Shown here: positions 10,923-25,869 of the stretch, piece by piece
Numbering within the stretch: the stretch's first letter is position 1
Layout of the letters: the number at the start of each line of letters is the position of its first letter
DNA from: Anaerolineae bacterium
Lineage (GTDB): Bacteria > Chloroflexota > Anaerolineae > Aggregatilineales > Phototrophicaceae
Direction of reading: 5' to 3'
Assembly: GCA_012270545.1 (NCBI GenBank)
Contig: JAAXID010000241.1
Coordinates: forward strand, 1 to 33,563
Length of the DNA stretch: 33,563 nt
Made by a program: the position numbers and the translations under genes
Notes under the pieces: model-generated
The model's input: the letters and a program-made list of their open reading frames with translations, nothing else
Database searches by the model: none
Told to the model about the DNA's origin: nothing

Positions 10923-12179
10923 ATGAATTTACGCAGACTATGTTTCGCTGTACTCACGATAGTATTGGTCTTTGGCAGCTTGCCGATCTCGGCACAAGCG
11001 GAAGAGATCAATATGACCATGTGGGTTCGCTTGATCAGCTTCCAGACACAAACACTGGTTGATGCCTGGAACGCTAATAACGACAGCCAGATTGAATTGA
11101 CCGTCGTCCCCGCCGGCACCGAGTTTGTGACCAAGATGGGCGCCGCCATCGCCGCCGGCGAACAGCCGGATATCGCCAGCATTGACCTCATCTTCACCCC
11201 CGTCTTTTCGTCGGCCGGTCAGCTTATCGACATCACCGAATATGTTCAGGCGCTGCCCTACGTCGACGATCTGACGCCGGCGCATATGCGACTGGGCATG
11301 TTCGAGGGACGCAACTATGCCGTGCCGACTGCCGTAGACGGTTCCTTCATGGTTTACAATAAAGACCTCTTTGAGCAAGCCGGGCTCGATCCCGAGGATC
11401 CGCCGTCCAACTGGGATGAATTACTAGACGCCGCGCGCGCCATCACCGCCCTGGGCGACGATATCTACGGCTATTGGTTCTCCGGGAATTGCGCCGGCTG
11501 CCTCGGCTTCATTCACATGCCCTTCGTCTGGGCGAACGGCGGCCGATTCTTCAGCGAAGACAACAGCGAAGCCACCATCAGCAATGAGCCGGCTATGCGC
11601 GACATGCTGGAGCTGTTCCGCACCATGTGGGAAGAGAGCTTGGTGCCGGAGGGTGCGGCCGTCGACAACGGCGCCAATTTCGTCAGCGCCTTCGTCGCCG
11701 GTAATATAGGCATGGCCGGCGTCGGTAATTTCGCCTTGCCAACTTTCGTCAACGACCACCCGGACCTGAACTTCGGCGTCTTCCACTTTCCAGGGATGGA
11801 TGGCGGCAGCGCGTCTTTCGCCGGCGGCGATGTCATCGCCATTCCCGCGGGCACGGAACATGTTGAGGAAGCCTGGCGCTTCATCGAGTGGACGCTCAGC
11901 GAAGAGGCGCAGCTCGAAATCTACGCGGCGAACGGTCAGATTCCCGTCCGTCTCTCGCTTGTTGACAACGAATACTTCGAGGGCGATGAACGCCAACACC
12001 TGGCCGCCAGCGCCCTAGCGGTTGGCCACGCGCCCTGGTCCACAGTCTTCCCGCGGTTATTTAACGACCCGAACGGACCTTGGCTGGAAATGTTCCAGGT
12101 CGGGGTTCTGGATGGCGATATCGACGGCGCGCTGGAAGTCGCTCAAGAACGCTTCACGCAGATCATGGCGGAAGGCTAG
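10923..12179 (+). CDS. ABC oligosaccharide-binding protein, family 1 (tandem copy A)
   Basis: This is an extracytoplasmic binding protein of the MalE/UgpB-like family 1, 418 residues. A signal peptide (MNLRRLCFAVLTIVLVFGSL) ends near SAQAEE with no lipobox. The mature protein has the family landmarks KMGAAIAAGEQPDIASID, GRNYAVPTAVDGSFMVYNKD and HVEEAWRFIEWTLSEEAQ. A CAGC pair of cysteines in NCAGCLGF may form a disulfide. The ribosome binding site AAGGAG is well placed. The next gene encodes a close paralogue over the whole length, so this is a tandem duplication. With the permeases and GH127 genes downstream, an arabinose-containing oligosaccharide is a reasonable ligand (inference). Confidence 0.93.
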   Translation: MNLRRLCFAVLTIVLVFGSLPISAQAEEINMTMWVRLISFQTQTLVDAWNANNDSQIELTVVPAGTEFVTKMGAAIAAGEQPDIASIDLIFTPVFSSAGQLIDITEYVQALPYVDDLTPAHMRLGMFEGRNYAVPTAVDGSFMVYNKDLFEQAGLDPEDPPSNWDELLDAARAITALGDDIYGYWFSGNCAGCLGFIHMPFVWANGGRFFSEDNSEATISNEPAMRDMLELFRTMWEESLVPEGAAVDNGANFVSAFVAGNIGMAGVGNFALPTFVNDHPDLNFGVFHFPGMDGGSASFAGGDVIAIPAGTEHVEEAWRFIEWTLSEEAQLEIYAANGQIPVRLSLVDNEYFEGDERQHLAASALAVGHAPWSTVFPRLFNDPNGPWLEMFQVGVLDGDIDGALEVAQERFTQIMAEG

Positions 12180-12197
12180 CCTCGCAATCTTTGAATA

Positions 12198-12219
12198 CCC
12201 GCGGGATTCGACTGGCGGG
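12198..12219 (+). terminator. Stem-loop after binding-protein gene A
   Basis: CCCGC (12198-12202) pairs with GCGGG (12215-12219) around a 12-base loop, about 20 bases after the stop codon, followed by CACTCTTTCCCC. It could be a weak terminator or a 3' mRNA stabiliser separating copy A from copy B. The 259-base gap that follows contains no reading frame I would defend. Confidence 0.35.
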
Positions 12220-12268
12220 CACTCTTTCCCCACACGCTGGCGAAACAACGGCGAACGAGCAGCGCATG

Positions 12269-12296
12269 TTGGCAATTGGTCAGCACCTGCTATAAA
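12269..12296 (+). promoter_or_regulatory. Candidate sigma70-type promoter for binding-protein gene B
   Basis: TTGGCA and TATAAA are separated by 16 bases, 143 bases before the start of copy B, which would give an untranslated leader of about 135 bases. If real, the second binding protein and the permeases can be expressed apart from copy A. This is a motif match only. Confidence 0.4.
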
Positions 12297-12438
12297 CTAG
12301 CGTAGTCTCCGTCTTGAGTGGGATGGCCCATGCCTCGCGATAATTGCGGCGCCAAGCGGACCAAGTACGACATGTCGAAAGCTCAATTCTGAGGTGTGAC
12401 GATCCGAACTTTGTTCAATTTAGAAAGGATGCAGTATC

Positions 12439-13689
12439 ATGATTTCTCGTAAGACAATTCTGCTTGTACTCGCGTTTGTACTGGTCTTGGGCAGCCTGCC
12501 GCTCATGGCGCAGGACGACCAGATCAACATGACGATGTGGGTTCGGTCGATCCCCTTCCAAACGCAGGCCTTGGTCGATGAGTGGAACGCCAACAATGAC
12601 AGCCAGATCGAGTTGACCGTTATCCCGAGTGGCGAGTTTGTCACCAAGATGGGCGCCGCCATCGCCGCCGGCGAACCGCCCGATATCGCCAGCATTGATT
12701 TGATTTACACACCCGCCTTTTCGGCCGCCGGTCAATTGGTCGATATCACCGATTTCGTCAGGGAACTGCCCTACGCCGACAGCTTGACGCCGGCGCATAT
12801 GGAATTGGGCATGTATGAGGGACGCAATTACGCCGTGCCAACGGGAGTAGACGGCTCTTTCATCGTTTACAACATCGACCTTTTTGAGCAGGCGGGCTTG
12901 GATCCGGAGGATCCGCCGTCAACCTGGGACGAAATGCTGGAGGCGGCGCGCGCTATCAACGCCCTTGGCGACGACATTTACGGCTATTGGTTCTCGATGA
13001 ACTGCGCCGGCTGCAACGCCTTCACCTTCCTGCCTTTCATCTGGGCCAGCGGCGGCGATGTGCTCAGCGACGACTACGCCGAAGCGACCATCACGTCGGA
13101 CCCGATCGTGCGCGAGGCGCTTGAATTCTACAACACGATCTGGGAAGAAGGTCTCGTGCCCGAGGGCGCCAGCATCGACAACGGCAGCAACTTCGTCAGC
13201 GCCTTTGCCGCCGGCAACATCGGTATGAGCGGCACAGGCAACTTCGCTATCCCCATTTACGCCAACGATCATCCGGATTTGAACTTCGGCGTTTTCCATA
13301 TTCCGGGTAAAGAGGGCGGCGCAGCCTCCTTCGGCGGCGGCGATGTCATCGCGATAGCAAGCGGCTCCGAACATGTCGAAGAAGCCTGGCGCTTCATCGA
13401 ATGGACCATGAGCGATGAGGCGCAGATTGAGATTTACGCCGCCAACGGTCAGATTCCGGTCCGCCTCGAGCTGATCGATAACCCGTACTTCGAGGGCGAT
13501 GATCGCCAGCTCACCGCCGCCAGCGCTTTGGCAGTTGGTCATACGCCCTACACCACCGTCTACAACGACCTATTTAACGACCCCAACGGTCCCTGGCTGG
13601 AGATGCTGCAAATCGCGATACTGGATGGCGATATCGATGGCGCGCTTGAGCTTGGGCAAGAGCGCTTCACCCAGATTATGGAAGGTTAG
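12439..13689 (+). CDS. ABC oligosaccharide-binding protein, family 1 (tandem copy B)
   Basis: This is the second family 1 binding protein, 416 residues, alignable without large gaps to copy A and identical at most positions. It has a signal peptide (MISRKTILLVLAFVLVLGSL) with likely cleavage at LMAQDD and no lipobox. It shares KMGAAIAAGEPPDIASID, the CAGC pair and the C-terminal NDPNGPWLEM. Differences cluster just after CAGC (NAFTFLPFIWASGG against LGFIHMPFVWANGG in copy A) and around GNFAIPIYANDHP. Loops like these could touch the ligand, so the two copies may bind different sugars (inference). An AAAGGA site precedes the ATG. It is followed by a strong stem-loop and then two permease genes. 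Confidence 0.93.
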   Translation: MISRKTILLVLAFVLVLGSLPLMAQDDQINMTMWVRSIPFQTQALVDEWNANNDSQIELTVIPSGEFVTKMGAAIAAGEPPDIASIDLIYTPAFSAAGQLVDITDFVRELPYADSLTPAHMELGMYEGRNYAVPTGVDGSFIVYNIDLFEQAGLDPEDPPSTWDEMLEAARAINALGDDIYGYWFSMNCAGCNAFTFLPFIWASGGDVLSDDYAEATITSDPIVREALEFYNTIWEEGLVPEGASIDNGSNFVSAFAAGNIGMSGTGNFAIPIYANDHPDLNFGVFHIPGKEGGAASFGGGDVIAIASGSEHVEEAWRFIEWTMSDEAQIEIYAANGQIPVRLELIDNPYFEGDDRQLTAASALAVGHTPYTTVYNDLFNDPNGPWLEMLQIAILDGDIDGALELGQERFTQIMEG

Positions 13690-13780: not shown

Positions 13781-14683
13781 GTGACGATGAGGCAGACCGC
13801 GTTGTTGAATCTCAGCTGGGAGCAGCGCCGTAAACTAACGGGGCTGCTTTTCGTTACCCCAACTGTCGCTTTCGTGACCGTGTTTTTCATCATTCCGCTG
13901 ATCATGACTGTCTACATGTCTTTTCATGATTGGCCGCTTTTCGGCGAACGAGCCTTCACCGGTTTGGAGAACTACCAGGAACTGTCCAAAGACCGACAGT
14001 ATCTCAAGAGCCTCGATTTCACATTTCGCTACACGGCGCTGATCACGCCCCCTATTTTCGTTCTGGGTTTCATTCTCGCTTCATTGGTCCGCCACAACAT
14101 TCGCTATATTGGAATCTTTCGCACCATTTTCTTCTTGCCGGTAGTGATCGGTTTGGGCGTATCAAGTCTGCTCTGGGTCTGGATGTTGGATGATCGGATC
14201 GGCGTCTTCAACAAGATCCTGCTTGACTTGAATCTGATTCCGAAGGCACAGCTTTTCCTTGGCCGACCCAACACCGCCATGAACGTCATTATTCTATCGG
14301 TGGTGTGGAAGACAGTCGGCTTCACGATGATTTTGCTGCTGGCGGGCTTGCAGGCGATCCCGGATGAACTCTACGAATCGGCCGAGGTCGATGGCGCCGG
14401 CTATTTCAGAAAGCTGTTTTACATCACCTTGCCGCTCATGCGCCGCACGATCGCGCTCGCCCTGATTCTGTCCGTCATCGGGTCTGTCCTGTCATTTGAC
14501 CAGTTCTACATCATGACGCGCGGCGGACCCCGCAACAGCACGATATCCATTGTCTTTTGGATCTTCAATAACTCTTTCACCTATTTCAAGATGGGCTACG
14601 GCGCGGCTATGTCTATCGTGCTCCTTGGCATTCTGGTGGCGCTGACCGGTACTCAATTATTCGTCTTGCGGGAAAAAGAATAG
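13781..14683 (+). CDS. ABC oligosaccharide permease, MalF/UgpA type
   Basis: This is an inner-membrane permease of a family 1 (CUT1) importer, 300 residues with six expected helices. The EAA-type cytoplasmic loop that contacts the ATPase is visible as ELYESAEVDGAGYFRKLFYITLPLM. The start is uncertain: the track uses GTG at 13781, an ATG follows at 13787, and neither has a clear Shine-Dalgarno sequence. The stop is directly abutted by the ATG of the next permease. No ATPase gene of the MalK type is in the cluster. Confidence 0.92.
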   Translation: MTMRQTALLNLSWEQRRKLTGLLFVTPTVAFVTVFFIIPLIMTVYMSFHDWPLFGERAFTGLENYQELSKDRQYLKSLDFTFRYTALITPPIFVLGFILASLVRHNIRYIGIFRTIFFLPVVIGLGVSSLLWVWMLDDRIGVFNKILLDLNLIPKAQLFLGRPNTAMNVIILSVVWKTVGFTMILLLAGLQAIPDELYESAEVDGAGYFRKLFYITLPLMRRTIALALILSVIGSVLSFDQFYIMTRGGPRNSTISIVFWIFNNSFTYFKMGYGAAMSIVLLGILVALTGTQLFVLREKE

Positions 14684-15592
14684 ATGGCAGCGACTTCACT
14701 ACAGGACGCGCAGGTCGACAAGGGCGCGATGACGCAGCAGGAAATCCGCCGATTGCGCCGGCGTGCGTTCTTGTGGCTGCGTTACCTCGTGCTGGTCATC
14801 CTGGCGCTTCTTTTCCTGTTTCCCATCGCCTGGTCACTCGTCAATTCCATAAAGTTGCCGGCCGAGGCGCTGGCGGTGCCGCCGACTTATCTGCCGACTG
14901 AAATCTCCTTGCAAAACTACGAGGAACTCACAACCTATGGGAAAATCGGCATCGCCCAACATGTCTACAACAGCACGGTCGTCGCGTTGATAACGGTCGT
15001 GGGCAGCATTGTGCTGAGCACACTTGGCGGCTACGGGTTCGCGCGCTTCAACTTTCCCGGCAAAAATGTTCTCTTCATCATGGTGCTCTCCACCCTGATG
15101 ATTCCCTTTCAGTCGATCTTGATACCGCTATTTGTCATGATCGTTCAAGTTGATTTGCACGACACCTTGTTTGGTCTCGCGCTTGTGTACATTACTTTTC
15201 AGTTGCCATTTGGCATTTTTCTCATGCGCAACAGTTTCCTCGCCGTGCCACTTGAGATCGAAGAATCGGCGCTGCTGGACGGCTGCAGTTCGTTGAGCGT
15301 TCTCTATCGTCTGATGCTGCGGCTGGTGCTGCCGGGCATCGTCACCGTGGCCATCTACGCTTTCATTAACTCCTGGAACGAATTCCTCGCCGCGCTGATT
15401 TTCATGTCCGATCAGGACAAATTCACATTGCCAGTTTTTCTCACCACGATTCGCTACGGCATCTGGGGAGATGTAAACTGGGGCGCTTTGCAGGCCGGCG
15501 TAATTGTCTCCATCATTCCCAGCCTGGGCATTTTCTTGGCGCTGCAGCGTTACTACATGGACGGGCTGATGGGCGGCGCGGTCAAGAATTAG
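14684..15592 (+). CDS. ABC oligosaccharide permease, MalG/UgpE type
   Basis: This is the partner permease of the same importer, 302 residues. It has an N-terminal hydrophobic helix (YLVLVILALLFLFPIAWSLV), and its EAA loop reads EIEESALLDGCSSLSVLYRL. The family's typical C-terminal GAVKN is present. It begins on the base after the upstream stop, so translation is coupled. It is 25 bases upstream of the first GH127-type gene, tying transport to arabinoside hydrolysis. Confidence 0.94.
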   Translation: MAATSLQDAQVDKGAMTQQEIRRLRRRAFLWLRYLVLVILALLFLFPIAWSLVNSIKLPAEALAVPPTYLPTEISLQNYEELTTYGKIGIAQHVYNSTVVALITVVGSIVLSTLGGYGFARFNFPGKNVLFIMVLSTLMIPFQSILIPLFVMIVQVDLHDTLFGLALVYITFQLPFGIFLMRNSFLAVPLEIEESALLDGCSSLSVLYRLMLRLVLPGIVTVAIYAFINSWNEFLAALIFMSDQDKFTLPVFLTTIRYGIWGDVNWGALQAGVIVSIIPSLGIFLALQRYYMDGLMGGAVKN

Positions 15593-15617: not shown

Positions 15618-17513
15618 ATGGACAAGCTGCCTCAGAATCGCCAGCCCTTGTATCCCGCGGCATTTCAAGCGCTGCCCCTGGGCGCCATCAAACCGCGCGG
15701 CTGGCTGCTGAACCAGTTGCGCGTGCAAGCGAATGGACTAACGGGCCACCTCGACGAATTCTGGCCCGATGTGGGAGCGGACAGCGGCTGGCTGGGCGGC
15801 GACGGCGAATCCTGGGAGCGCGGTCCCTACTATCTCGATGGCTTGCTGCCATTGGCGCATCTGCTTGATGACGAGCGCCTTCTCAAAAAGGTCGAGCCCT
15901 GGATCGAATGGACGCTGCACAGCCAGGATGAGCGCGGCTACTTCGGACCGCAGCTCCCCGACTGGTGGCCGCGTATGATTATGCTGAAGGTGCTGATGAT
16001 GCACTACGAAGTCAGCGCAGACGAGCGCGTCCTCCAACTGATGACCAATTACTTCCGCTATCAGCTGCGCGTTCTGCCGGTGAAGCCGCTGTATCTATGG
16101 GGCTGGGCGCGCGCGATGGACAACGTACTGGCTGCCCATTGGCTGTACAACTTCACCGGTGACGAATTCCTCCTGAACTTGGCTCAGCTGCTAATTGACA
16201 GCACGCTCGACTGGCCCGAATTACAAGCGAACTACGGCCTGCGCCACGTGTTACCACTGAAAGAGTGGAATCACGGGATGATGACGCACGGACCCAACAA
16301 TGCGATGGGGGTCAAAGCCGGTGGCGTCTTCTATGTGCAGACGGGAAAACCGTGGCACCAGATGGCCTCTCGACTCGGCATCGAAAACTTGATGCGGCAT
16401 CATGGTCAGCCCAACGGCGTCTTCAGTTGCGACGAACATCTCAACGGCACATCGCCCGTCAGCGGCAGCGAGCTCTGTGCCGTTGCCGAGTTCATGTTCT
16501 CACTGGAAGAACTGATGCGGATACTGGGCGATCCCTTCTTCGGCGATCAATTGGAACAGGTGGCCTACAACGCATTCCCCGCCACCTTCAGTCCCGACAT
16601 GTGGGCTCACCAATACGATCAGCAGGTGAATCAAGTTCTGGCGACGGTCGCGGAGCGTAACTGGACCGACAATACGGACCCATCAAACATCTTCGGTCTG
16701 GAGCCGCATTATGGCTGTTGCACCGCCAATATGCACCAGGCTTGGCCCAAATTCACCAAGAGCCTCTTCATGGCGACGCCGGGCGGTGGGCTCGCCGCGG
16801 TCGCCTATGCGCCTTCCCAGGCAACGACGACCGTGGCGAATGGCATTCCCGTGTCCATTACTGAGTCGACTGAATACCCTTTCAAGGGCGAGATAACATT
16901 TGACTTCGAGCTGGATTCGCCTTGCGAATTTGATTTCCACCTGCGCCTCCCGGATTGGGCGGAAGAAGTCCAACTGACGATCAACGGGAAAACTGAAACA
17001 CTTGGCGCCGCCGGCACCTTTCATGTGATCGAACGACAGTGGCAATCGGGCGACAGCGTTGCGCTCGAACTGCCAATGGATCTGCGCCTGTGCGAAGGGC
17101 ACAAGGGTTTGCTGTCTGTGTTTCGCGGTCCGCTGCTGTTCGGCTCCCGAATCGATGAAGAGTGGCGACAGATCGCCGGCGAGCTGCCACACGCCGATTG
17201 GGAGATTTACCCCAAATCGGCCTGGAATTATGGCCTGATCCCTGACGACGAGACGGTACTTGCGGGCCTTCAAGTGAAAGAGGCAAAGCCCAGCAAGATT
17301 CCCTTCTCCACAGATGATCCGCCGGTAACCCTTAAGGTGGCGGCAAGGCAACTGCCGCAATGGACCCTGCAAGACAATTCCGCCGCCGATATCGATGTCG
17401 GACCTCATCTCACTGACGAAGCGACCGAGGAGATAACGCTGATTCCCTACGGCTCGACTCAACTGAGAATCGCGGCTTTTCCCATTGCGCGGACCGAAAA
17501 GGACGAGGAATGA
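15618..17513 (+). CDS. DUF1680 / GH127-like glycoside hydrolase (divergent)
   Basis: This is a 631-residue protein of the beta-L-arabinofuranosidase (PF07944) superfamily. The fold pattern is an alpha/alpha barrel (GPYYLDGLLPLAHLLDDERL, repeated helices) followed by beta domains. The cysteine-zinc centre is recognisable: E285-x-C287 in GSELCAV and C367-C368 in YGCCTANMHQ; a candidate acid/base is E273 in CDEHLNG. The spacing between that Glu and E285 is shorter than in HypBA1-type enzymes and CCPTN is changed to CCTAN, so it belongs to a different subgroup, perhaps GH146-like or unassigned. No signal peptide is seen, implying cytoplasmic action on imported oligosaccharides. Its end overlaps the next gene by four bases. 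Confidence 0.86.
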   Translation: MDKLPQNRQPLYPAAFQALPLGAIKPRGWLLNQLRVQANGLTGHLDEFWPDVGADSGWLGGDGESWERGPYYLDGLLPLAHLLDDERLLKKVEPWIEWTLHSQDERGYFGPQLPDWWPRMIMLKVLMMHYEVSADERVLQLMTNYFRYQLRVLPVKPLYLWGWARAMDNVLAAHWLYNFTGDEFLLNLAQLLIDSTLDWPELQANYGLRHVLPLKEWNHGMMTHGPNNAMGVKAGGVFYVQTGKPWHQMASRLGIENLMRHHGQPNGVFSCDEHLNGTSPVSGSELCAVAEFMFSLEELMRILGDPFFGDQLEQVAYNAFPATFSPDMWAHQYDQQVNQVLATVAERNWTDNTDPSNIFGLEPHYGCCTANMHQAWPKFTKSLFMATPGGGLAAVAYAPSQATTTVANGIPVSITESTEYPFKGEITFDFELDSPCEFDFHLRLPDWAEEVQLTINGKTETLGAAGTFHVIERQWQSGDSVALELPMDLRLCEGHKGLLSVFRGPLLFGSRIDEEWRQIAGELPHADWEIYPKSAWNYGLIPDDETVLAGLQVKEAKPSKIPFSTDDPPVTLKVAARQLPQWTLQDNSAADIDVGPHLTDEATEEITLIPYGSTQLRIAAFPIARTEKDEE

Positions 17514-19399
17514 GCGCTAAGCATGGCGATTACCCGATTCAAGCCCTGCCATTCACCGGCGTACGGATTCAAGACAAGTTCTGGAAACCACGCATCGACA
17601 CCGCAGTGAACATAACAATCCCCTACGACTTTGAGAAATGTGAGGAGACGGGCCGCATCGACAACTTCGCCAAAGCGGGTGGACAGATGGCAGGCTCTCA
17701 TCAGGGCATTTTTTACGACGATTCCGATGTCTTCAAAGTGGTTCAGGGCGCCGCTTATGCCCTGCAAGTCGCGCCGAACCAGGAGTTGGAATCCTACCTG
17801 GACGAGCTCATCGATAAATTCACTGCCGCGCAGGAAGACGACGGCTATCTCTACACCGCGCGCACCATCGATGGCGACAAGGTCGACGAACGCTGTGGGT
17901 CGGAGCGCTGGTCGAATCTCGGCGTCAACCACGAACTCTACAATGTCGGCCACATGTATGAAGCCGCCGTCGCCTACTTTGAAGCAACCGGCAAGCGGAA
18001 GTTCCTCGATGTCGCCCTGAAGAATGCCGACCTGATTGATTCGGTATTTGGCGCCGGCAAGCTGCGCGATGTACCCGGGCATCAAGAAATCGAGATAGGC
18101 TTGGTCAGTCTGTATCGCATCACCGGCAACGTGAAGTACCTGAAATTGGCGAAGTTCTTCCTCGACGAGCGGGGTCAGGCGAACAGACGCGAAGTATACG
18201 GTCCTAACTGCCAGGACCATCTGCCGGTGACGGAGCAGCGAGAAGCGGTCGGTCATGCTGTTCGCGCGGGTTACATGTACGCCGGCATGACCGACATCGC
18301 CGCGCTCACCGGCGACGCGCGATACGCCTCAGCTGTGAAGGGACTGTGGAAAAACGTGGTGGGCAAGAAGCTGGCGCTCACAGGCGGCATCGGCGCGCGC
18401 CACGCTGGGGAAGCCTTCGGCGACGATTACGAATTGCCCAACTTAACCGCCTACAACGAGACCTGCGCCGCCCAAGCCAATATCCTCTGGAATCAGCGCA
18501 TGTTCCTGTTGACGGGCGAGGCGCAATATATCGACGTCCTCGAACGTACGCTCTACAATGGTTTCCTGTCCGGCGTCGGCATGGATGGGACTTCGTTCTA
18601 CTATGTCAATCCGTTGGCTTGCGACGGCGAGTATCAATTCAATCTCGGCACGTCGATGTCACGGCAGCCCTGGTATCAGACGTCTTGCTGTCCAACTAAC
18701 GTTGTCCGACTGCTGCCTTCATTATCAGGCTACGTCTACGCCCGGCGCGGCCATGACATTTTCGTCAACCTTTACATCGCCAGTCGGACGCGGTTGCAGT
18801 TCGAAGGCTGTGACATCCATATCGCACAAGACACGGACTATCCCCGCGATGGCGCGATCACACTTGACCTCACCGTATCTCAGCCGACTTCGTTTGCGCT
18901 CAAATTGCGGATTCCCTCATTTGCCCAGGGTCAGCCGCTGCCCAGCGATCTCTACCGCTACCTCGACGCCAGGGACGGTCCGGCGACATTAGTCGTCGAC
19001 GGCGAATCGATTCCGCTTGACGATTGCGCCGGTTATGCCACGCTGTCACGCCGCTGGGAAGGCAGGACACGAGTGGAACTGCAGCTGCCGATGACCATCC
19101 GCCGAGTGGTCGCGCATGATTCGGTGGACAACTTGCGCGGGAAGGTAGCGCTCGAAAGAGGCCCAATTGTCTACGCGCTGGAATCGGCTGACAACGATTC
19201 GTCGGTATTGGATCTGACGCTGGAAGATGCGAGCCAACTGACCGCCGAGCATCAGCCGAACATGCTAGGGGGAATCACCACCATCCGCGGCCGAGCGCTC
19301 GACGCCTATGGCGCCCCGTTTCCGTTCACCGCCATCCCTTACTACGCCTGGGGACATCGCGGCGTCGGCCCCATGACAGTTTGGCTGAATAGATCGTAA
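17510..19399 (+). CDS. GH127 beta-L-arabinofuranosidase
   Basis: This is a 629-residue GH127 enzyme close to the HypBA1 pattern. E301 (GEAFGDDYE) matches the acid/base Glu. E317 and C319 in NETCA, with C393 and C394 in SCCPTN, match the zinc site, and C393 matches the cysteine nucleophile. The spacing (16 residues between the two Glu, then +2) is as I recall for HypBA1. Such enzymes remove terminal beta-L-arabinofuranose, for example from hydroxyproline-linked arabino-oligosaccharides. There is no signal peptide, so it acts inside the cell. Its ATG overlaps the upstream stop (ATGA), with GAGGA just before. It converges with the proline racemase-family gene with seven bases between them. Confidence 0.93.
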   Translation: MSAKHGDYPIQALPFTGVRIQDKFWKPRIDTAVNITIPYDFEKCEETGRIDNFAKAGGQMAGSHQGIFYDDSDVFKVVQGAAYALQVAPNQELESYLDELIDKFTAAQEDDGYLYTARTIDGDKVDERCGSERWSNLGVNHELYNVGHMYEAAVAYFEATGKRKFLDVALKNADLIDSVFGAGKLRDVPGHQEIEIGLVSLYRITGNVKYLKLAKFFLDERGQANRREVYGPNCQDHLPVTEQREAVGHAVRAGYMYAGMTDIAALTGDARYASAVKGLWKNVVGKKLALTGGIGARHAGEAFGDDYELPNLTAYNETCAAQANILWNQRMFLLTGEAQYIDVLERTLYNGFLSGVGMDGTSFYYVNPLACDGEYQFNLGTSMSRQPWYQTSCCPTNVVRLLPSLSGYVYARRGHDIFVNLYIASRTRLQFEGCDIHIAQDTDYPRDGAITLDLTVSQPTSFALKLRIPSFAQGQPLPSDLYRYLDARDGPATLVVDGESIPLDDCAGYATLSRRWEGRTRVELQLPMTIRRVVAHDSVDNLRGKVALERGPIVYALESADNDSSVLDLTLEDASQLTAEHQPNMLGGITTIRGRALDAYGAPFPFTAIPYYAWGHRGVGPMTVWLNRS

Positions 19400-19406
19400 G
19401 TGACGC

Positions 19407-20435
19407 TCAAGACTTGGGCCAGGTATCGGTGAGGCGATAGCCAAGCGGCCAGGGGTCGTCAGGATCGAGCATCAGCTGCTGCGTGCCGGTTATCCAGGCG
19501 CGCCCGCGAATGCGCGGGATGACCGCCTCGCGACCACTAAGTGAGACGACCTCAGCAATCTGACAGTCAAATCGCGAACCTATAATCGAGCGGGCGACAA
19601 ACCGATCCCCGAGACCTATCTCGCCCCTTGCATGAAGCACCGCCAGCCGCGCCGAGCAGCCCGTGCCGCAGGGAGAACGATCCAACTTGCCCGGATCAAT
19701 GGCGACGGTATTGCGCCCGGTTAGCGCGCCGTCGCGCCTCTCGACAGGCAGCGTGAACTGGCAGAAGGAAATATGATTCCATTCGTCCTGAGTCGGATGT
19801 CGAAAACCGAGCTGTTCATTGGCGGCGGCAGTGATTCGCGCGCCAATCCGCGCCAGGTCAAGCGCTTCGTCCGGAACAATCTCGAATCCCACTGAGCGGG
19901 CGTCGACCAGGACAAAACTGTCGCCGCCATAAGCAACATCCACATTGAGCGTCCCAAGGCCTTCAACTTCCAGCCCGGCATCAAGCTTGTCGACAAAGGA
20001 TGGCACATTCTGAAACTCGATGCTCAGCGCTTTGCCATCTTGGCAGCGGGCGCGGATATGCACCAAGCCCGCCGGCGCTTCAAGATAGAAACTCGTCTCT
20101 GGCTCTTGCATCGCGACCATGCCCGTATCCAGCAGCACGGTGGCGACGCAGATCGAATTCGAGCCTGACATCGGCGGCGTATGCTCGGGCTCCATGATGA
20201 TGAAGCCGAAAGCGGCATCCGGGTGTTTCGACGGCACGAGCAGGTTAACATGCTTGAAGACGCCGCCTCGCGGTTCATTCAACACAAACTGGCGCAATCT
20301 CTGATCCTGCGCGATCCAGCGCGATTGCTCCCAGAGCGTTTCGCCCGCTGGTGGCGGCAGCCCGCCGACGATCACATTGCCGACTTCCCCTTCGGCATGG
20401 CAACTGACGATATGGATGACTTTGCTCGTTCGCAT
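19407..20435 (-). CDS. Proline racemase superfamily protein (hydroxyproline epimerase or dehydratase type)
   Basis: This is a 342-residue member of the superfamily that includes proline racemase, 4-hydroxyproline 2-epimerase and trans-3-hydroxy-L-proline dehydratase. The second catalytic motif [11 protein letters not shown] keeps its cysteine (C256), but the first motif reads PPMSGSNSI, with serine (S90) where racemases have cysteine. From memory, Ser/Cys members are tied to hydroxyproline metabolism; the exact reaction is open. I chose the ATG at 20435 ([10 protein letters not shown]), 29 codons inside the track ORF, because the family starts there and a candidate extended -10 promoter lies just upstream of it. 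The location beside GH127 genes supports a role in hydroxyproline use (inference). Confidence 0.9.
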
Positions 20436-20467
20436 TGGCTCATTCCAGAAGCGTAAGGACAGCCTTA

Positions 20468-20476
20468 ATTGTACCA
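20468..20476 (-). promoter_or_regulatory. Candidate extended -10 promoter for the proline racemase-family gene
   Basis: On the minus strand the sequence is TGGTACAAT, an extended -10 element about 33 bases before the chosen start, so the leader would be near 25 bases. This supports the shorter start codon. A second GTACCAA word occurs about 46 bases further upstream and could be part of an operator. The 228-base divergent region holds no reading frame I would defend. Confidence 0.4.
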
Positions 20477-20663
20477 AAGGCCTCCGCGAATCGACCATCT
20501 TGCGCGAGCTAAGTAGTACCAAGAAAGTAATGAGAATGACCGCCTTGTGAAAGAAAGCGACCTTTTCGCCCGATTACGATATATTGGCAACGTAGCATCG
20601 CGAAGCAATCGGCATTATTATCCAAAGGACGTAGACCGAACTCTACCGAGAAAGGGGACGACT

Positions 20664-21482
20664 ATGCCCTTTACATCCATGAGTGAAGTGTTCGATGTGC
20701 CCACGTATCCGAAGCCGCGCAGTTTACGGCAAACCTGGCTGAAAGATGTCGGATACGACGAAGCGCCACAATACATCGAGCGAATGAGTTTGGTCGAACT
20801 GGAGGACTTCCTCGAAGTGGCGGCCGAGCGCCTGGACTTCGTTAAGATCGTCACCACACAGATCATTTTCAGTCCGCACGATTGGCTCAAGCGCAAGATC
20901 GCAACGTATCAGCGCTTTGCGGTCGAGCCTTATCTGGATCACTCATTCTTCATGCAAGCGTACCAACGCGGCGTGGTTGAAAGCGCCATCGAGGCCGGGC
21001 GCGAGTTGGGCTTCCGCGTCATCGAGTTCATGAACACCACGGACGAAGTTAGCGCCGCGCAATGGAAAGCCTGGCGCAAGCTGGCGCTTGATTTGGGCAT
21101 GCGCATCATTCAGGAGCACCATCCGATTCATCATTGGAATTGGAGCCTGAGGCCGCGCGCCTCAACCGCCGACGAGATCCTGCGCGGAGCCGAGGCCGCC
21201 CTTGAAGACGGCGCTTTCATGGTGATGATTGACCATGAAGAATTTGACCTGCAAGGTGAAAATACCGCGCAAGAAATCGGCAAAGTGGTCGACGCGCTTG
21301 GGCTTGAGAATGTAGTCTTCGAGGCAACATCGCCGAAGGAAGGTCCCATGCTCTGGCACGACAATCTGCAACTTTACTTCAGCTTATTCGGCGAAAACGC
21401 CAATGTCGCCAATGTCATGCCCAGCCAAGCGATGTATGTCGAAGAGATGCGTGCACCATTTTTGCGCACAAAGCGCCAATAG
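20664..21482 (+). CDS. ComA-like (phosphosulfolactate synthase superfamily) protein, divergent
   Basis: This is a 272-residue TIM-barrel-type protein resembling the ComA family (PF02679), whose known member joins sulfite to phosphoenolpyruvate. The likeness is in ELEDFLEVAAERLDFVKI, LKRKIATYQRF, AYQRGVVESAIEAGRELGFR and VIEF, with strands spaced as in ComA. The GWGT-like and GGTLFE-like motifs I recall from true ComA are replaced by VTTQII and DHSFFM, so sulfolactate synthesis should not be assumed. The ATG at 20664 has AAAGGGG upstream; the track ORF adds 39 unlikely residues. It leads a plus-strand run with an RraA-like protein (24 bases on), an SDR and a sulfatase. Confidence 0.72.
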   Translation: MPFTSMSEVFDVPTYPKPRSLRQTWLKDVGYDEAPQYIERMSLVELEDFLEVAAERLDFVKIVTTQIIFSPHDWLKRKIATYQRFAVEPYLDHSFFMQAYQRGVVESAIEAGRELGFRVIEFMNTTDEVSAAQWKAWRKLALDLGMRIIQEHHPIHHWNWSLRPRASTADEILRGAEAALEDGAFMVMIDHEEFDLQGENTAQEIGKVVDALGLENVVFEATSPKEGPMLWHDNLQLYFSLFGENANVANVMPSQAMYVEEMRAPFLRTKRQ

Positions 21483-21506
21483 TGAAATGGACAAGGAGAC
21501 TTGCAA

Positions 21507-22223
21507 ATGGTTCATAAATGCGTATTGGACAAGCTGCGCGGATACGATTCGGCGACAATCGCCAACGTCATCGAACTATTCCAGGTCCGCCGGCGCAACC
21601 GCGGATTCATGACGCGCGAGATCAAGGCGGCCTTCCCGCGCCTGCCGCCGATGGTCGGCTTCGCATCAACCGCAACCTGCCGCACATTCGCCGGCTTGCC
21701 CGAGCGCAAGGTTCCAGGCCTGCCCGATCTAATCAGCCGCTTTGACGAGCTCGCCGGGCCGCCAGTGATCGTCTTGCAGAATCTCGATACCGACGGCGCC
21801 GCGGCCAATTTTGGCGATGTTTTCTGCAACTCCTTCAAAGCCTTCGGCGCGGTTGGCTTGGTCACAAATGGACCGGGCCGGGATTTTGCCGGGATCAAAC
21901 CGCTCGATTTTCCCGTCTTCTACAACGGCATCGTCTGCGCCCACGGTTATATGCACCTGCTCGAATTGCATCAACCCGTGCAAGTTGGCGGCATCGATGT
22001 CTACCCGAACGATCTGCTTCACGGCGACGCCAATGGCATCACCACCATTCCTCGGGATATCGCGGCCGATGTCGCCGATGCCTGCGCCGAATACGCCGCT
22101 GCCGAAGCGGTGGTCATTGACACGGCACAGAGCGGCTCCGCATCATTGTCCGAGTTGCGCGAGGCCTATGGCGAAATGGCGAGTCGCATTGCCGACCTAA
22201 CGGCGCGTGTGCGAAAGCCCTGA
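21507..22223 (+). CDS. RraA-like / 4-hydroxy-4-methyl-2-oxoglutarate aldolase family protein
   Basis: This is a 238-residue protein of the RraA-like family, which includes metal-dependent pyruvate aldolases (HMG/CHA aldolase) and the RNase E regulator RraA. The key signature is present: GAVGLVTNGPGRDFAGI with the R-D pair, then VYPNDLLHGDANGITTIP matching the family's PGD...GD-x-xG-V-x-x-P block. AAGGAG lies eight bases before the ATG at 21507; the track start is a TTG two codons earlier. Its place next to a ComA-like protein and an SDR favours a catabolic aldolase or decarboxylase role over RNase control (inference). Confidence 0.85.
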   Translation: MVHKCVLDKLRGYDSATIANVIELFQVRRRNRGFMTREIKAAFPRLPPMVGFASTATCRTFAGLPERKVPGLPDLISRFDELAGPPVIVLQNLDTDGAAANFGDVFCNSFKAFGAVGLVTNGPGRDFAGIKPLDFPVFYNGIVCAHGYMHLLELHQPVQVGGIDVYPNDLLHGDANGITTIPRDIAADVADACAEYAAAEAVVIDTAQSGSASLSELREAYGEMASRIADLTARVRKP

Positions 22224-22253
22224 GCAACCCTTCACCTAAGCAGGGAGGCTGAA

Positions 22254-23210
22254 ATGCGCTTATATGTGACCGGCGGCACAGGTTTGGTCGGCAGCAATAT
22301 CATCCGATTGGCGCGCCAGCGGGGCAGCGAAATCATCGCCTCGCAATACGGACCCGAGCCGGAATGGCACGTCGATTACGAACTTGATCCGCTGAACCTG
22401 GCCGACCGTGAGGCCATCCGCGTTTCAATCCGCAAGTTCAAACCCGATGTCGTCATCCACTGCGCCGCCATTCTCGATCCAGTTTACATGTCCGCAAATC
22501 GAGAATTGTGCTGGGCGATCATGGTCGATGGAACGCGCGCCCTGGCGGAAGCCTGCCGCGATGTTGGCGCGCGTCTGGTTTTCGTCTCCTCGGACTGGGT
22601 TTTTGACGGACGCGTCGACATGGTGGATGAGACCTCGCCACCGAACCCGGTCAACTATTACGGCGTGATGAAGCTGGCCTCCGAGCGCGATTTAGGCGCG
22701 CTGGATGGCTTGAACTACGGCGTTGGCCGGCTGGCGGGCATCTATGGCTTGAACTACGCCGCCCCGTCGCTGGCGCGGGTGGATAACGGCTTGGGCTTCG
22801 ACTTCTCCGTCTATGTTATCTACCGGCTGGCGGCCGGCTTGCCGGCGGAAGTCTGGACCGGCCCCAAGGTCAATGATGTGGCGCATCCCACCCTGGCCTC
22901 CGACTGCGCTGATATGCTTCTGCGGCTGGCGCAGCACGATGGCAACGGCGTCTTCCATTGTTTCGGCAGCGAAGCGGTCAACCGCATTGACCTCGCCCAT
23001 CAAATCGCCGCCGCCTTTGATGCCGATCCCGCCTTGATCATGCCGACGCGGACCGACGAGGCGGTGCTGGATCAGATGCGCCACATCGGTATCCCCTACC
23101 GGACGCGAATGAGCACGGAACGCACGGCGAAAGCGCTGGGGCGGCGTGCCTTGAATGTCCAGGAAGGCTTGACCGCCTTTCGTCGAGAATGGGATGAGTT
23201 CTGGCGCTAA
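22254..23210 (+). CDS. Extended SDR: NAD(P)-dependent sugar epimerase/reductase (RmlD-like)
   Basis: This is a 318-residue extended short-chain dehydrogenase. The Rossmann motif is VTGGTGLVGSN at the N terminus, VVIHCAA follows, the catalytic serine region is LVFVSSDWVFDG, and the Tyr-Lys pair is YYGVMK. The pattern DPLNLADREAIR and the SSDWVFDG block resemble dTDP-4-dehydrorhamnose reductase-like proteins, but the substrate cannot be fixed. GGGAGG precedes the ATG. It lies between the RraA-like and sulfatase genes, with gaps of about 30 bases each, so the four genes are likely co-transcribed. Confidence 0.9.
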   Translation: MRLYVTGGTGLVGSNIIRLARQRGSEIIASQYGPEPEWHVDYELDPLNLADREAIRVSIRKFKPDVVIHCAAILDPVYMSANRELCWAIMVDGTRALAEACRDVGARLVFVSSDWVFDGRVDMVDETSPPNPVNYYGVMKLASERDLGALDGLNYGVGRLAGIYGLNYAAPSLARVDNGLGFDFSVYVIYRLAAGLPAEVWTGPKVNDVAHPTLASDCADMLLRLAQHDGNGVFHCFGSEAVNRIDLAHQIAAAFDADPALIMPTRTDEAVLDQMRHIGIPYRTRMSTERTAKALGRRALNVQEGLTAFRREWDEFWR

Positions 23211-23236
23211 GTCCTTAACATACTAATGGAGCAATC

Positions 23237-24625
23237 ATGTCGAAGCCGAATGTCGTCTTCCTGCTGACTGATCAGTGGCGCCTGCAAGCCCTGGGCTACG
23301 CCGGCAACGCGCAGGTGCAGACCCCGAACATCGATCGGCTGGCGGGCGAAAGCATCAACTTCAAACATGCGATTTCGGGTTATTCGGTCTGCTGTCCTTG
23401 GCGCGCCAGCTTCCTCACCGGGCAATACCCGCTGACTCACGGCGTCATCGTCAATGACGTCCCCATCAGCAGCGAGCCGATCGGGCTGGGCGATGCTTTC
23501 AAGCGCGCCGGTTACAACACCGCCTATATCGGCAAATGGCATGTGGACGGGCGAGGACGCAGCAGCTACATCCCGCCGGAGCGCCGCCTTGGCTTCGACT
23601 ATTTTAAGGTGCTGGAATGCACGCACGACTACAACCAGTCGGCATACTACGACAATGATGACCCGACCATGCGTTTCTGGGATGGCTACGATGTCTTCGC
23701 CCAGATGGCCGACGCGCAGGAATACATCGAATCACAGTCTCCCGCGAAACCTTTCATGTTGGTCCTCTCCTGGGGACCGCCACATAATCCATACGAGACG
23801 GCGCCGCAGGAGTATCGTGATCGCTACGAGACGCATGAGATCGAACTGCGTCCTAATGTGCCGCCTGAAATGGCCGACGATGCGCGTGAATGGCTGGCCG
23901 GCTACTATGCCCATTGCAGCGCCATCGACAAGTCCGTCGGCGATATCATGGGTACACTGGACGAACGCGGCCTCACTAATAACACCGTGCTCGTATTCGC
24001 TTCGGATCATGGCGATATGCTGGGTTCGCAAGGCTGGACGCGCAAGCAGAAGCCCTGGGAGGAGTCCATTCGGGTGCCCTTTCTGCTGCGTTATCCGGCG
24101 AAATATGGGCGCGACAGTCGCGAGGTTTCGCCCTTCCTCAACGCGCACGACATTATGCCCACCTTGCTGGGCGTCTGCGATCTGCCCATTCCCGCAAGCG
24201 TAGAGGGGCGTGATTTCTCAGCGGCACTCGCTGGAGAGACAATTGCTAGCAACGGCCGCGTAGGGGCGGCACGTAGACACAGCCCCGCCGACACTGGCAG
24301 CGACGGCGCGCTGCTCGCCTGCTTCCACCCCTTTGGCGAATGGTCGCGGGCCGCAGGCGGCCACGAGTATCGCGGCATTCGGACGGCGCGCTACACCTAT
24401 TGCCGGACGCTGAACGGATCCTGGCTGCTTTACGACAACGACGCCGATCCCTACCAGCTCGAGAATCTCGTCGACCATTCAGAGTACGCCGACATTCAAG
24501 CTGAGCTCGAGACGCTCTTGCAGCGCAAACTGGACGAGATCGGCGACGAGTTCCTCGATGGCATGGCCTACATCAACAAGTGGAGTTATCCGCTGGACGA
24601 CACTGGAACCGTGCCATTTCGCTGA
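23237..24625 (+). CDS. Sulfatase (type I, formylglycine-dependent)
   Basis: This is a 462-residue arylsulfatase-type hydrolase. It has the metal-site start VVFLLTDQWR (D12, Q13), the formylglycine motif C52-C-P-W-R56 inside SVCCPWRASFLTG, the K-x-H of GKWHVDG (K100, H102), and ASDHGDMLGSQG for the remaining metal ligands. It would remove sulfate from a sugar or small organic sulfate. No signal peptide is visible, so it is probably cytoplasmic and its substrate imported. Residues about 340-355 are encoded by a 46-base hairpin repeat (24255-24300) in a variable loop before the conserved HPFGEWSRAAGGHEYRG; the frame is kept. A formylglycine-generating enzyme is not in the window. Confidence 0.93.
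   Translation: MSKPNVVFLLTDQWRLQALGYAGNAQVQTPNIDRLAGESINFKHAISGYSVCCPWRASFLTGQYPLTHGVIVNDVPISSEPIGLGDAFKRAGYNTAYIGKWHVDGRGRSSYIPPERRLGFDYFKVLECTHDYNQSAYYDNDDPTMRFWDGYDVFAQMADAQEYIESQSPAKPFMLVLSWGPPHNPYETAPQEYRDRYETHEIELRPNVPPEMADDAREWLAGYYAHCSAIDKSVGDIMGTLDERGLTNNTVLVFASDHGDMLGSQGWTRKQKPWEESIRVPFLLRYPAKYGRDSREVSPFLNAHDIMPTLLGVCDLPIPASVEGRDFSAALAGETIASNGRVGAARRHSPADTGSDGALLACFHPFGEWSRAAGGHEYRGIRTARYTYCRTLNGSWLLYDNDADPYQLENLVDHSEYADIQAELETLLQRKLDEIGDEFLDGMAYINKWSYPLDDTGTVPFR
24255..24300. repeat. Dispersed hairpin repeat, copy A, inside the sulfatase gene
   Basis: This 46-base segment matches 27864-27906 apart from a three-base indel (GGC) and two substitutions. It can fold through GGGGC and GCCCC around CACGTAGACACA-like sequence. 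In the sulfatase it is read in frame as an Arg/Gly/Ala-rich stretch. Part of the same word (GCCGCGTAG then ACACTGGC) also occurs at 30926-30943. Confidence 0.85.
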
Positions 24626-24655: not shown

Positions 24656-25474
24656 CTACGCTTCAAGGCGCACATAGTCCTTGCTGCGATGAAAAATCAG
24701 CGGTGACTGCGCGTCGTCATCCAGCACTTCGCCAATCTGATAGCTGGCCACTTGTTCATCCGACAAGATATTCTTCTGCCCATTGAAGGTGCTGCCATCG
24801 GGCATGTAGGCGCAGGTCATCGCTCGCCGGTGATAGGGCGTCATATTGGCGCCAGCGCCATGCGCGCACAAGCCATTATGAAAGGTACATGAACCGGCTT
24901 TCATCTCGATGCCAACCGCTTCCATCTCGCCCCATTGTGGATAGGTATTGAAAAGATCGCCGATATTGCTGCCGATGCCAACATTGTCGTAGGTAGCCGT
25001 CTTGTGGGCGCCCGGTATGAAGTACAGGCAGCCGTTGTCACGCGTCACATCGTCAAGCGCCACCCAAATGCTGATCGCATCGCGCGAATAGAAGGACCAG
25101 TAAGGATTGTCGAGGTGCCAGCCGGTCGGGTTGCCCCAGGGCGGCTTAATCAGCGCTTGGTCGTGCCAGATGCGTATGCCATCGACTTGCGCCAGGTCGG
25201 CCGCCATCTTGCCCAACCGGTCATCGATCATAAGGCGGCGCATGCCCTCGTGATCGTTCCACAAGTTGATGCGCTGCGTGAAGACACGCGCGCCATAGTT
25301 GTCCTCTTCTATCCAGCTTCCATCCGCCAGCTTGCGCTTGCCGCGGCTTCCCACCGCCTCGCCAACGTATTGTCGCCAGACCTCGAGTTCTTCCGCGTTT
25401 AAGAAGTCCTGTATGACCACAAATCCATTGTCTTGATAGAACGCTATTTGTTCCGCAGTAATCGTATGATTCAT
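24656..25474 (-). CDS. Phytanoyl-CoA dioxygenase (PhyH) family protein
   Basis: This is a 272-residue Fe(II)/2-oxoglutarate-dependent oxygenase of the PhyH family. The iron site is visible as WHLD (H-x-D) in TGWHLDNPYW and the distal His in CAHGAGANMTPYHRR, where the following Arg would bind 2-oxoglutarate. The N-terminal ITAEQIAFYQDNGFVVIQDF is typical. I selected the ATG at 25474 because AGGAGG is about nine bases upstream; the track ORF start lies inside the preceding scar. Family members hydroxylate varied small molecules. It is convergent with the sulfatase gene, with 30 bases between them. Confidence 0.92.
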   Translation of the reverse strand: MNHTITAEQIAFYQDNGFVVIQDFLNAEELEVWRQYVGEAVGSRGKRKLADGSWIEEDNYGARVFTQRINLWNDHEGMRRLMIDDRLGKMAADLAQVDGIRIWHDQALIKPPWGNPTGWHLDNPYWSFYSRDAISIWVALDDVTRDNGCLYFIPGAHKTATYDNVGIGSNIGDLFNTYPQWGEMEAVGIEMKAGSCTFHNGLCAHGAGANMTPYHRRAMTCAYMPDGSTFNGQKNILSDEQVASYQIGEVLDDDAQSPLIFHRSKDYVRLEA

Positions 25475-25524
25475 TTCCTTTTCCTCCTGCTGCTGTCCAA
25501 GTGGCGCGTCGACACAGCCACCTT

Positions 25525-25716
25525 TTACCAATTGTTGACGATATTTTCAGCCCTGCGCCAGGCCAGCGCCATAATCGTCTCGGCAGGGTTGAAGCTGGCG
25601 TTTGTGACCTGCGGCGAGCCATCAGCGATGAGCAGGTTGTCGTGGCTATGGACGCGACAGAAAGGATCGACCACCGAAGTCGCCGGAGAGATGCGCGACT
25701 GGATGCCGTAGCGGTC
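25525..25716 (-). pseudogene. GMC oxidoreductase, C-terminal remnant
   Basis: About 63 codons match the last part of a GMC oxidoreductase (choline/gluconate dehydrogenase type): ISPATSVVDPFCRVHSHDNL, ADGSPQVTNASFNPAETIMA and a final helix. This holds the conserved Asn-Pro of the active-site end. The FAD-binding N terminus and most of the enzyme are missing, as the family is usually over 500 residues. Upstream, the frame runs only into unrelated translation, because the DNA there belongs to another gene start in a different frame. It is a deletion remnant, not a small gene. Confidence 0.75.
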
Positions 25717-25717
25717 T

Positions 25718-25780
25718 TTCAGCTGGGATGATGATGTCCAACAAAGCCCAAAGGCTGCGCATTTCGCGGTCGTCAAACAT
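25718..25780 (-). pseudogene. Gluconate 2-dehydrogenase subunit 3-like protein, N-terminal remnant
   Basis: From the ATG at 25780, with AAGG correctly placed upstream, the frame reads MFDDREMRSLWALLDIIIPA, which resembles the N terminus of gluconate 2-dehydrogenase subunit 3 (family motif: L..L.D.IIPA). Similarity ends after about 21 codons, where the GMC remnant begins in another frame; the frame then runs to a stop at 25646. The small subunit is normally encoded directly upstream of the GMC subunit, so a single internal deletion explains both remnants. This ORF is not in the supplied track. Confidence 0.55.
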
Positions 25781-25869
25781 GTTTTGCCTTTCATTTCAGA
25801 TGCTAAACTCGACAGCTGGTCGAAGTATAATCGGGTCAACTACACTAATCAAATTCTCGCGCGTATGCC

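Follow-up and report, generated by a model that had tools for sequence, protein, structure and literature searches.

What do four closely packed genes do together when we know no described pathway that would hold them all? The question is raised by a block in a 33,563-nucleotide stretch of DNA from an Anaerolineae bacterium (the whole stretch analysed is called the window here), in which genes for a ComA-like protein, an RraA-like protein, an RmlD-like SDR and a sulfatase follow each other on the plus strand. A sequence-only reading had taken the four genes as one pathway, a route for an organosulfur compound or a sulfated sugar that would end in C3 chemistry.

All four genes are present and intact by Pfam and open reading frame checks (Table 1), much as that reading had described them, and their Pfam assignments are well over the cut-offs. 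The gaps between them are about 18–30 bases. Comparison with relatives shows all four under purifying selection, with dN/dS values of 0.06–0.16. The start of the RraA-like gene is better sited at the ATG at 21507, behind AAGGAG, than at 21501. A scan for promoters and terminators gave nothing beyond chance, and we identified no enzyme of any known sugar pathway in the four-gene block.

The genes are thus real, but the sequence-only reading missed the larger locus to which they belong. This locus is more than 10 kb long. Upstream of the block it includes a carbohydrate ABC importer, made up of sugar-binding proteins and two permeases, and a pair of GH127 proteins. The two sugar-binding protein genes (10923–13689) are similar and stand in tandem, and copy b is kept more widely than copy a. 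The divergently transcribed trans-3-hydroxy-L-proline dehydratase is probably outside the pathway. Downstream of the block lie a PhyH dioxygenase and then an oligopeptide-type ABC system. At 25525–25839 a 104-aa remnant is left of the C-terminal end of a GMC oxidoreductase; in several relatives the gene in this slot is intact (about 552 aa) and adjoins one for gluconate 2-dehydrogenase subunit 3, so most of the gene appears to be gone in the window species.

Table 1. Coordinates of features in the window (position 1 is its first nucleotide).
Feature	Position	Strand	Evidence and conservation
Carbohydrate ABC substrate-binding protein, copy a	10923..12179	+	PF01547; kept in few relatives
Carbohydrate ABC substrate-binding protein, copy b	12439..13689	+	PF01547; syntenic in most relatives
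Two ABC permeases	13781-14683, 14684-15592	+	PF00528; syntenic
GH127 protein a, weak catalytic-domain match	15618..17513	+	PF20736 74 bits, PF07944 56 bits
GH127 glycosidase b	17510..19399	+	PF07944 348 bits; best PDB match 6ex6, 621 bits
Trans-3-hydroxy-L-proline dehydratase, divergent neighbour	19407..20522	-	NF047722 606 bits, cut-off 550; syntenic
ComA-like TIM-barrel protein, distinct clade	20664..21482	+	PF02679, E 5e-43
RraA-like protein, aldolase/decarboxylase family	21501..22223 (start probably ATG 21507)	+	PF03737, E 6e-19
RmlD-like extended SDR (NAD(P) oxidoreductase), distinct from true RmlD	22254..23210	+	PF04321, E 5e-41
Type I sulfatase, CCPWR formylglycine motif	23237..24625	+	PF00884, E 3e-54
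PhyH-type dioxygenase, convergent neighbour	24656..25531	-	PF05721; syntenic in most relatives

The best PDB match of GH127 protein b is to a Bacteroides arabinofuranosidase. Protein b lacks the C-x-C pattern of characterised GH127 enzymes, so its activity is unsure. In carrageenan loci, marine GH127 enzymes can also be 3,6-anhydro-D-galactosidases (PMC5698469); the glycan therefore cannot be named from the similarity of GH127 protein b to 6ex6.

To judge how far the block holds together, we compared 33 RraA loci of one Chloroflexota genus, the window included and a divergent one (G033) set aside. The genus is sponge-associated, judging from metagenome bin names and from the literature on sponge Chloroflexi, in which ABC transporters for sugars, the degradation of uronates and an enrichment of arylsulfatases are reported (PMC6306507). 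An ortholog of the RraA-like gene is present in every one of the 34 genus genomes, with 60–89% identity in relatives, and synteny across the genus runs from the binding protein through the permeases, GH127 and, in brackets as it were, the hydroxyproline dehydratase to the ComA-like, RraA, SDR and sulfatase genes. The ComA-like gene stands directly upstream of RraA in 20 of the 33 loci, and 17 of these 20 have the complete order ComA-like, RraA-like, SDR, sulfatase (of the others, the first runs into the end of its contig, the second has no SDR, and the third has neither SDR nor sulfatase). The set therefore recurs beyond this contig. At ten loci a medium-chain dehydrogenase gene has been added upstream of ComA-like or RraA; it accompanies ComA-like in eight and replaces it in two. 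In seven relatives a protein family with signal-peptide-like starts is encoded between the SDR and the sulfatase (L034:12344-13207, L035:7104-7922, L130:11643-12350 and four others); the one member scanned had no Pfam match. In one genome (G014), a second small cluster beside the locus (L032:12225-15790) consists of a sulfatase, a Gfo/Idh/MocA oxidoreductase and a sulfotransferase, and genes related to it are found in G025 and G031.

The ComA-like gene is missing at the remaining 13 loci, 10 of which still have RraA-SDR-sulfatase. We reject decay that left a remnant behind: tblastn found no trace of one in the ComA-negative genomes. The presence of the gene requires about eight changes on the RraA tree, a weakly resolved tree built from a single short gene, in which few branches have strong support, and for this reason ComA-like looks like an accessory gene that has been repeatedly gained, lost or exchanged.

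Members of the same clade also occur in three settings outside this locus, each time behind carbohydrate ABC genes. Within the same genus (G001) the order is binding protein-permease-permease-ComA-like, the binding protein being assigned by visual inspection of its signal peptide and N-terminal start. A marine alphaproteobacterial single-cell genome (L066) has LacI-binding protein-permease-permease-ComA-like-MalK, close to genes for UxaC and for sugar-acid dehydrogenase families (Gfo/Idh/MocA and 2-hydroxyacid dehydrogenase). Plasmid pAtS4c of Allorhizobium ampelinum S4, a cultivable strain, has GntR-binding protein-permease-permease-UgpC-ComA-like, with the ComA-like gene AVI_RS24180 overlapping UgpC by a few bases. 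The Allorhizobium and alphaproteobacterial proteins belong to the clade at 56–61% identity. The permeases in these settings are only 25–37% identical to those of the window, so the substrates may differ. Homologs of RraA and SDR on plasmids were only distant matches (about 27–34% identity), a broader search for the clade in Alphaproteobacteria returned only the single-cell genome already known, and in a sample of 249 genomes of the class the other strong PF02679 matches score as true ComA or as other groups. The strongest functional clue we have is this context: because sugar ABC genes are common to the settings, the ComA-like enzyme appears to act on a compound that carbohydrate ABC systems bring into the cell.

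To treat the four genes as one pathway is consequently too strong a claim, with ComA-like absent from 13 loci and found outside the genus without RraA, beside carbohydrate ABC operons. The RraA-like and SDR genes persist without ComA-like and may therefore serve a different route. This leads to the main rival to our reading, in which two modules overlap: an RraA-SDR-sulfatase core, and a transferable ComA-like accessory for a different imported sugar that shares the locus by chance. The universal presence of RraA, the 13 loci that lack ComA-like or any remnant of it, its changing presence on the RraA tree and its occurrence elsewhere without RraA are all as this explanation would have them. 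However, the genes are tightly spaced and ComA-like occupies the same slot in 20 species, which suggests co-expression, and the tree that carries the count of changes is the poorly supported one. We regard two separate modules as rather unlikely.

Does the ComA-like protein make a sulfur compound, as its nearest named relative does? It matches PF02679 at 147.6 bits (cut-off 25.2) and reaches 64 bits, against a cut-off of 280, with the ComA equivalog model TIGR03849. K17-P18-R19, D58, K61, E121, E151 and R263 are the same in all 42 family members compared, and E220 and N247 in nearly all. The motifs of ComA itself are replaced in a clade-specific way (KFGWGT by KIVTTQ, GGT by LDHS, TEVGKK by QEHHPI, and EGRESGKG by DHEEFDLQ), which removes positively charged residues; in true ComA these motifs would bind the phosphate of PEP and sulfite. 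An AlphaFold model is a confident TIM barrel (pLDDT 90.5), for which the nearest solved structure in Foldseek is ComA (1qwg, TM 0.72–0.78), followed at TM of about 0.5 by sugar 3-epimerases and other barrels, generic matches that name no reaction. In the family tree the clade is set apart from all other members, including Methanocaldococcus jannaschii ComA, by a long branch with SH-aLRT of 100, although the branches are long enough that its exact placement is unsure. The divergence noticed by the sequence-only reading is therefore real, with the core residues of the family kept and the positively charged residues of the ComA motifs gone.

These results bear on an organosulfur route, in which the ComA-like enzyme would act with RraA and add sulfite to a C3 acid or remove it. 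The Pfam family and fold are those of phosphosulfolactate synthase and the core residues remain, but the characteristic motifs do not, the protein lies outside the true ComA clade, and a sugar ABC context accompanies every ComA-like setting seen. ComB (PF04029), which follows ComA in the route to sulfolactate, was found in none of the 34 genus genomes, while 7 of 14 control genomes were positive. On the absence of ComB and of the motifs we reject a route of the sulfolactate or coenzyme M type, and we consider the organosulfur route highly improbable. The ComA-like protein very probably does something other than the synthesis of sulfur compounds carried out by ComA. Plant HSA32 belongs to the same Pfam family, and some other Chloroflexota members (L070-L075) look HSA32-like, yet these bacterial proteins form a clade separate from the window protein, whose operon context is sugar transport; a non-enzymatic or stress role like that reported for plant HSA32 is the least probable of the explanations considered. 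Other uncharacterised PF02679 groups (L024, L025, L026), all annotated as phosphosulfolactate synthase, include genes on an Arthrobacter plasmid beside a CocE hydrolase, a thioredoxin pair and a UGSC (seleno)protein, and in Bradyrhizobium beside MmgE/PrpD and PrpF. One Chloroflexota genome (G094) has three PF02679 matches (L071, L078, L079), two of them adjacent on one contig, with a stop inside one of this pair.

In the RraA-like protein G105, D106, R127, D128 and E202 correspond to G101, D102, R123, D124 and E199 of HMG/CHA aldolase and are invariant in 33 of 33 orthologs. In that aldolase R123 is reported to be indispensable for stabilising the enolate, while D124 and E199 bind the metal (PMC5065237). 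All residues that mark a class II pyruvate aldolase (the G-D pair, R-D and the distal Glu) are thus in place, and the score with the HMG/CHA aldolase equivalog TIGR02798 is 49 bits against a cut-off of 304.5, by which the protein does not count as an HMG/CHA aldolase proper. A pyruvate-type aldolase or decarboxylase is a credible assignment on these residues, and because they are kept, the C3 chemistry proposed from the sequence is plausible. The SDR scores 118 bits with the rmlD equivalog TIGR01214, whose cut-off is 224, and a true RmlD paralog elsewhere in the genome scores 253 bits; we therefore reject dTDP-4-dehydrorhamnose reductase as its function. The CxPxR formylglycine motif of the sulfatase (CCPWR) is invariant in 29 orthologs, and two FGE genes in the genome supply the maturation enzyme, so that all the marks of a type I sulfatase are there (PF00884, C-x-P-x-R and maturation enzyme). 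It has no apparent signal peptide and is probably cytoplasmic. As a neighbour it is weak evidence for the substrate because the genome has 33 sulfatase matches. Its presence implies sulfate esters and not sulfonates.

Our reading, which we think is probably right, is that bacteria in marine sponges use the locus to import and break down a sulfated sugar, with the four-gene block as its cytoplasmic enzymatic part and the ComA-like protein as an optional metal enzyme and not a sulfite-adding synthase. From gene identities, synteny, core residues, the ComA-like clade and the absence of ComB, all read from sequence, we infer the steps, their order, the substrate and the ComA-like reaction as follows. 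The ABC system would take up a sulfated oligosaccharide or glycoside, and the GH127 enzymes and the sulfatase, which have no apparent export signals, would trim and desulfate it in the cytoplasm. The SDR (with the added medium-chain dehydrogenase in some species) may oxidise the released sugar, and the RraA-like enzyme may cleave or decarboxylate the resulting 2-oxo acid to give a C3 unit. The ComA-like protein would be a metal-dependent TIM-barrel enzyme that handles the sugar or sugar acid at an early step after import, most likely as an isomerase, epimerase, dehydratase or lyase. Because some species run the locus without it, its probable contribution is a wider range of substrates or an additional branch. 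More tentatively, it is possible that in this clade a TIM-barrel fold known from sulfonate biosynthesis has been put to use in carbohydrate catabolism, with a new reaction on sugars or sugar acids that involves no sulfur, and that these enzymes form with the RraA-like protein and the SDR a pathway, so far undescribed, for a sulfated glycan of sponges or algae. Of the two substrates first proposed for the block, then, a sulfated sugar is the better reading, and a sulfonate is not supported, given the 34 genomes without ComB, the low equivalog score and the sulfatase.

Members of PF02679 are routinely annotated as phosphosulfolactate synthase (the Allorhizobium plasmid gene, for example), and our results suggest that a section of the family is mislabelled in this way. 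Among the papers surveyed that name phosphosulfolactate synthase, we saw no ComA-like enzyme in sugar catabolism. Because the gene repeatedly lies next to sugar importers, a new enzyme activity can be tested for, and the locus is a concrete candidate for the means by which sponge symbionts that are abundant but uncultured live on sulfated glycans.

ComA and YitD phosphosulfolactate synthases (PF02679; 1qwg, 1u83) have their fold and the core Lys, Glu and Asn in common with the ComA-like protein, which differs from them in its identity of about 20–25%, replaced motifs, own clade, lack of ComB and sugar-transport context. HMG/CHA aldolase and the RraA family (PF03737, 3noj) share with the RraA-like protein the catalytic G-D, R-D and distal Glu, which agree in position and in spacing, whereas overall similarity is weak (27 bits to 3noj) and far under every equivalog cut-off. 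The window SDR is an extended SDR with the glycine-rich motif and YxxxK of RmlD and MAT2B-type SDRs, but scores under the RmlD cut-off, and the true RmlD is separate in the genome. The window block has no enzymes annotated like dauA-D of the Zobellia carrageenan utilisation locus, its importer is an ABC system and not SusCD with MFS, and its sulfatase is nearest to other S1 enzymes. What the Zobellia locus has in common with it is a marine setting and the combination of GH127 glycosidases and sulfatases with transporters and with oxidation of a released sugar that leads to pyruvate (PMC5698469).
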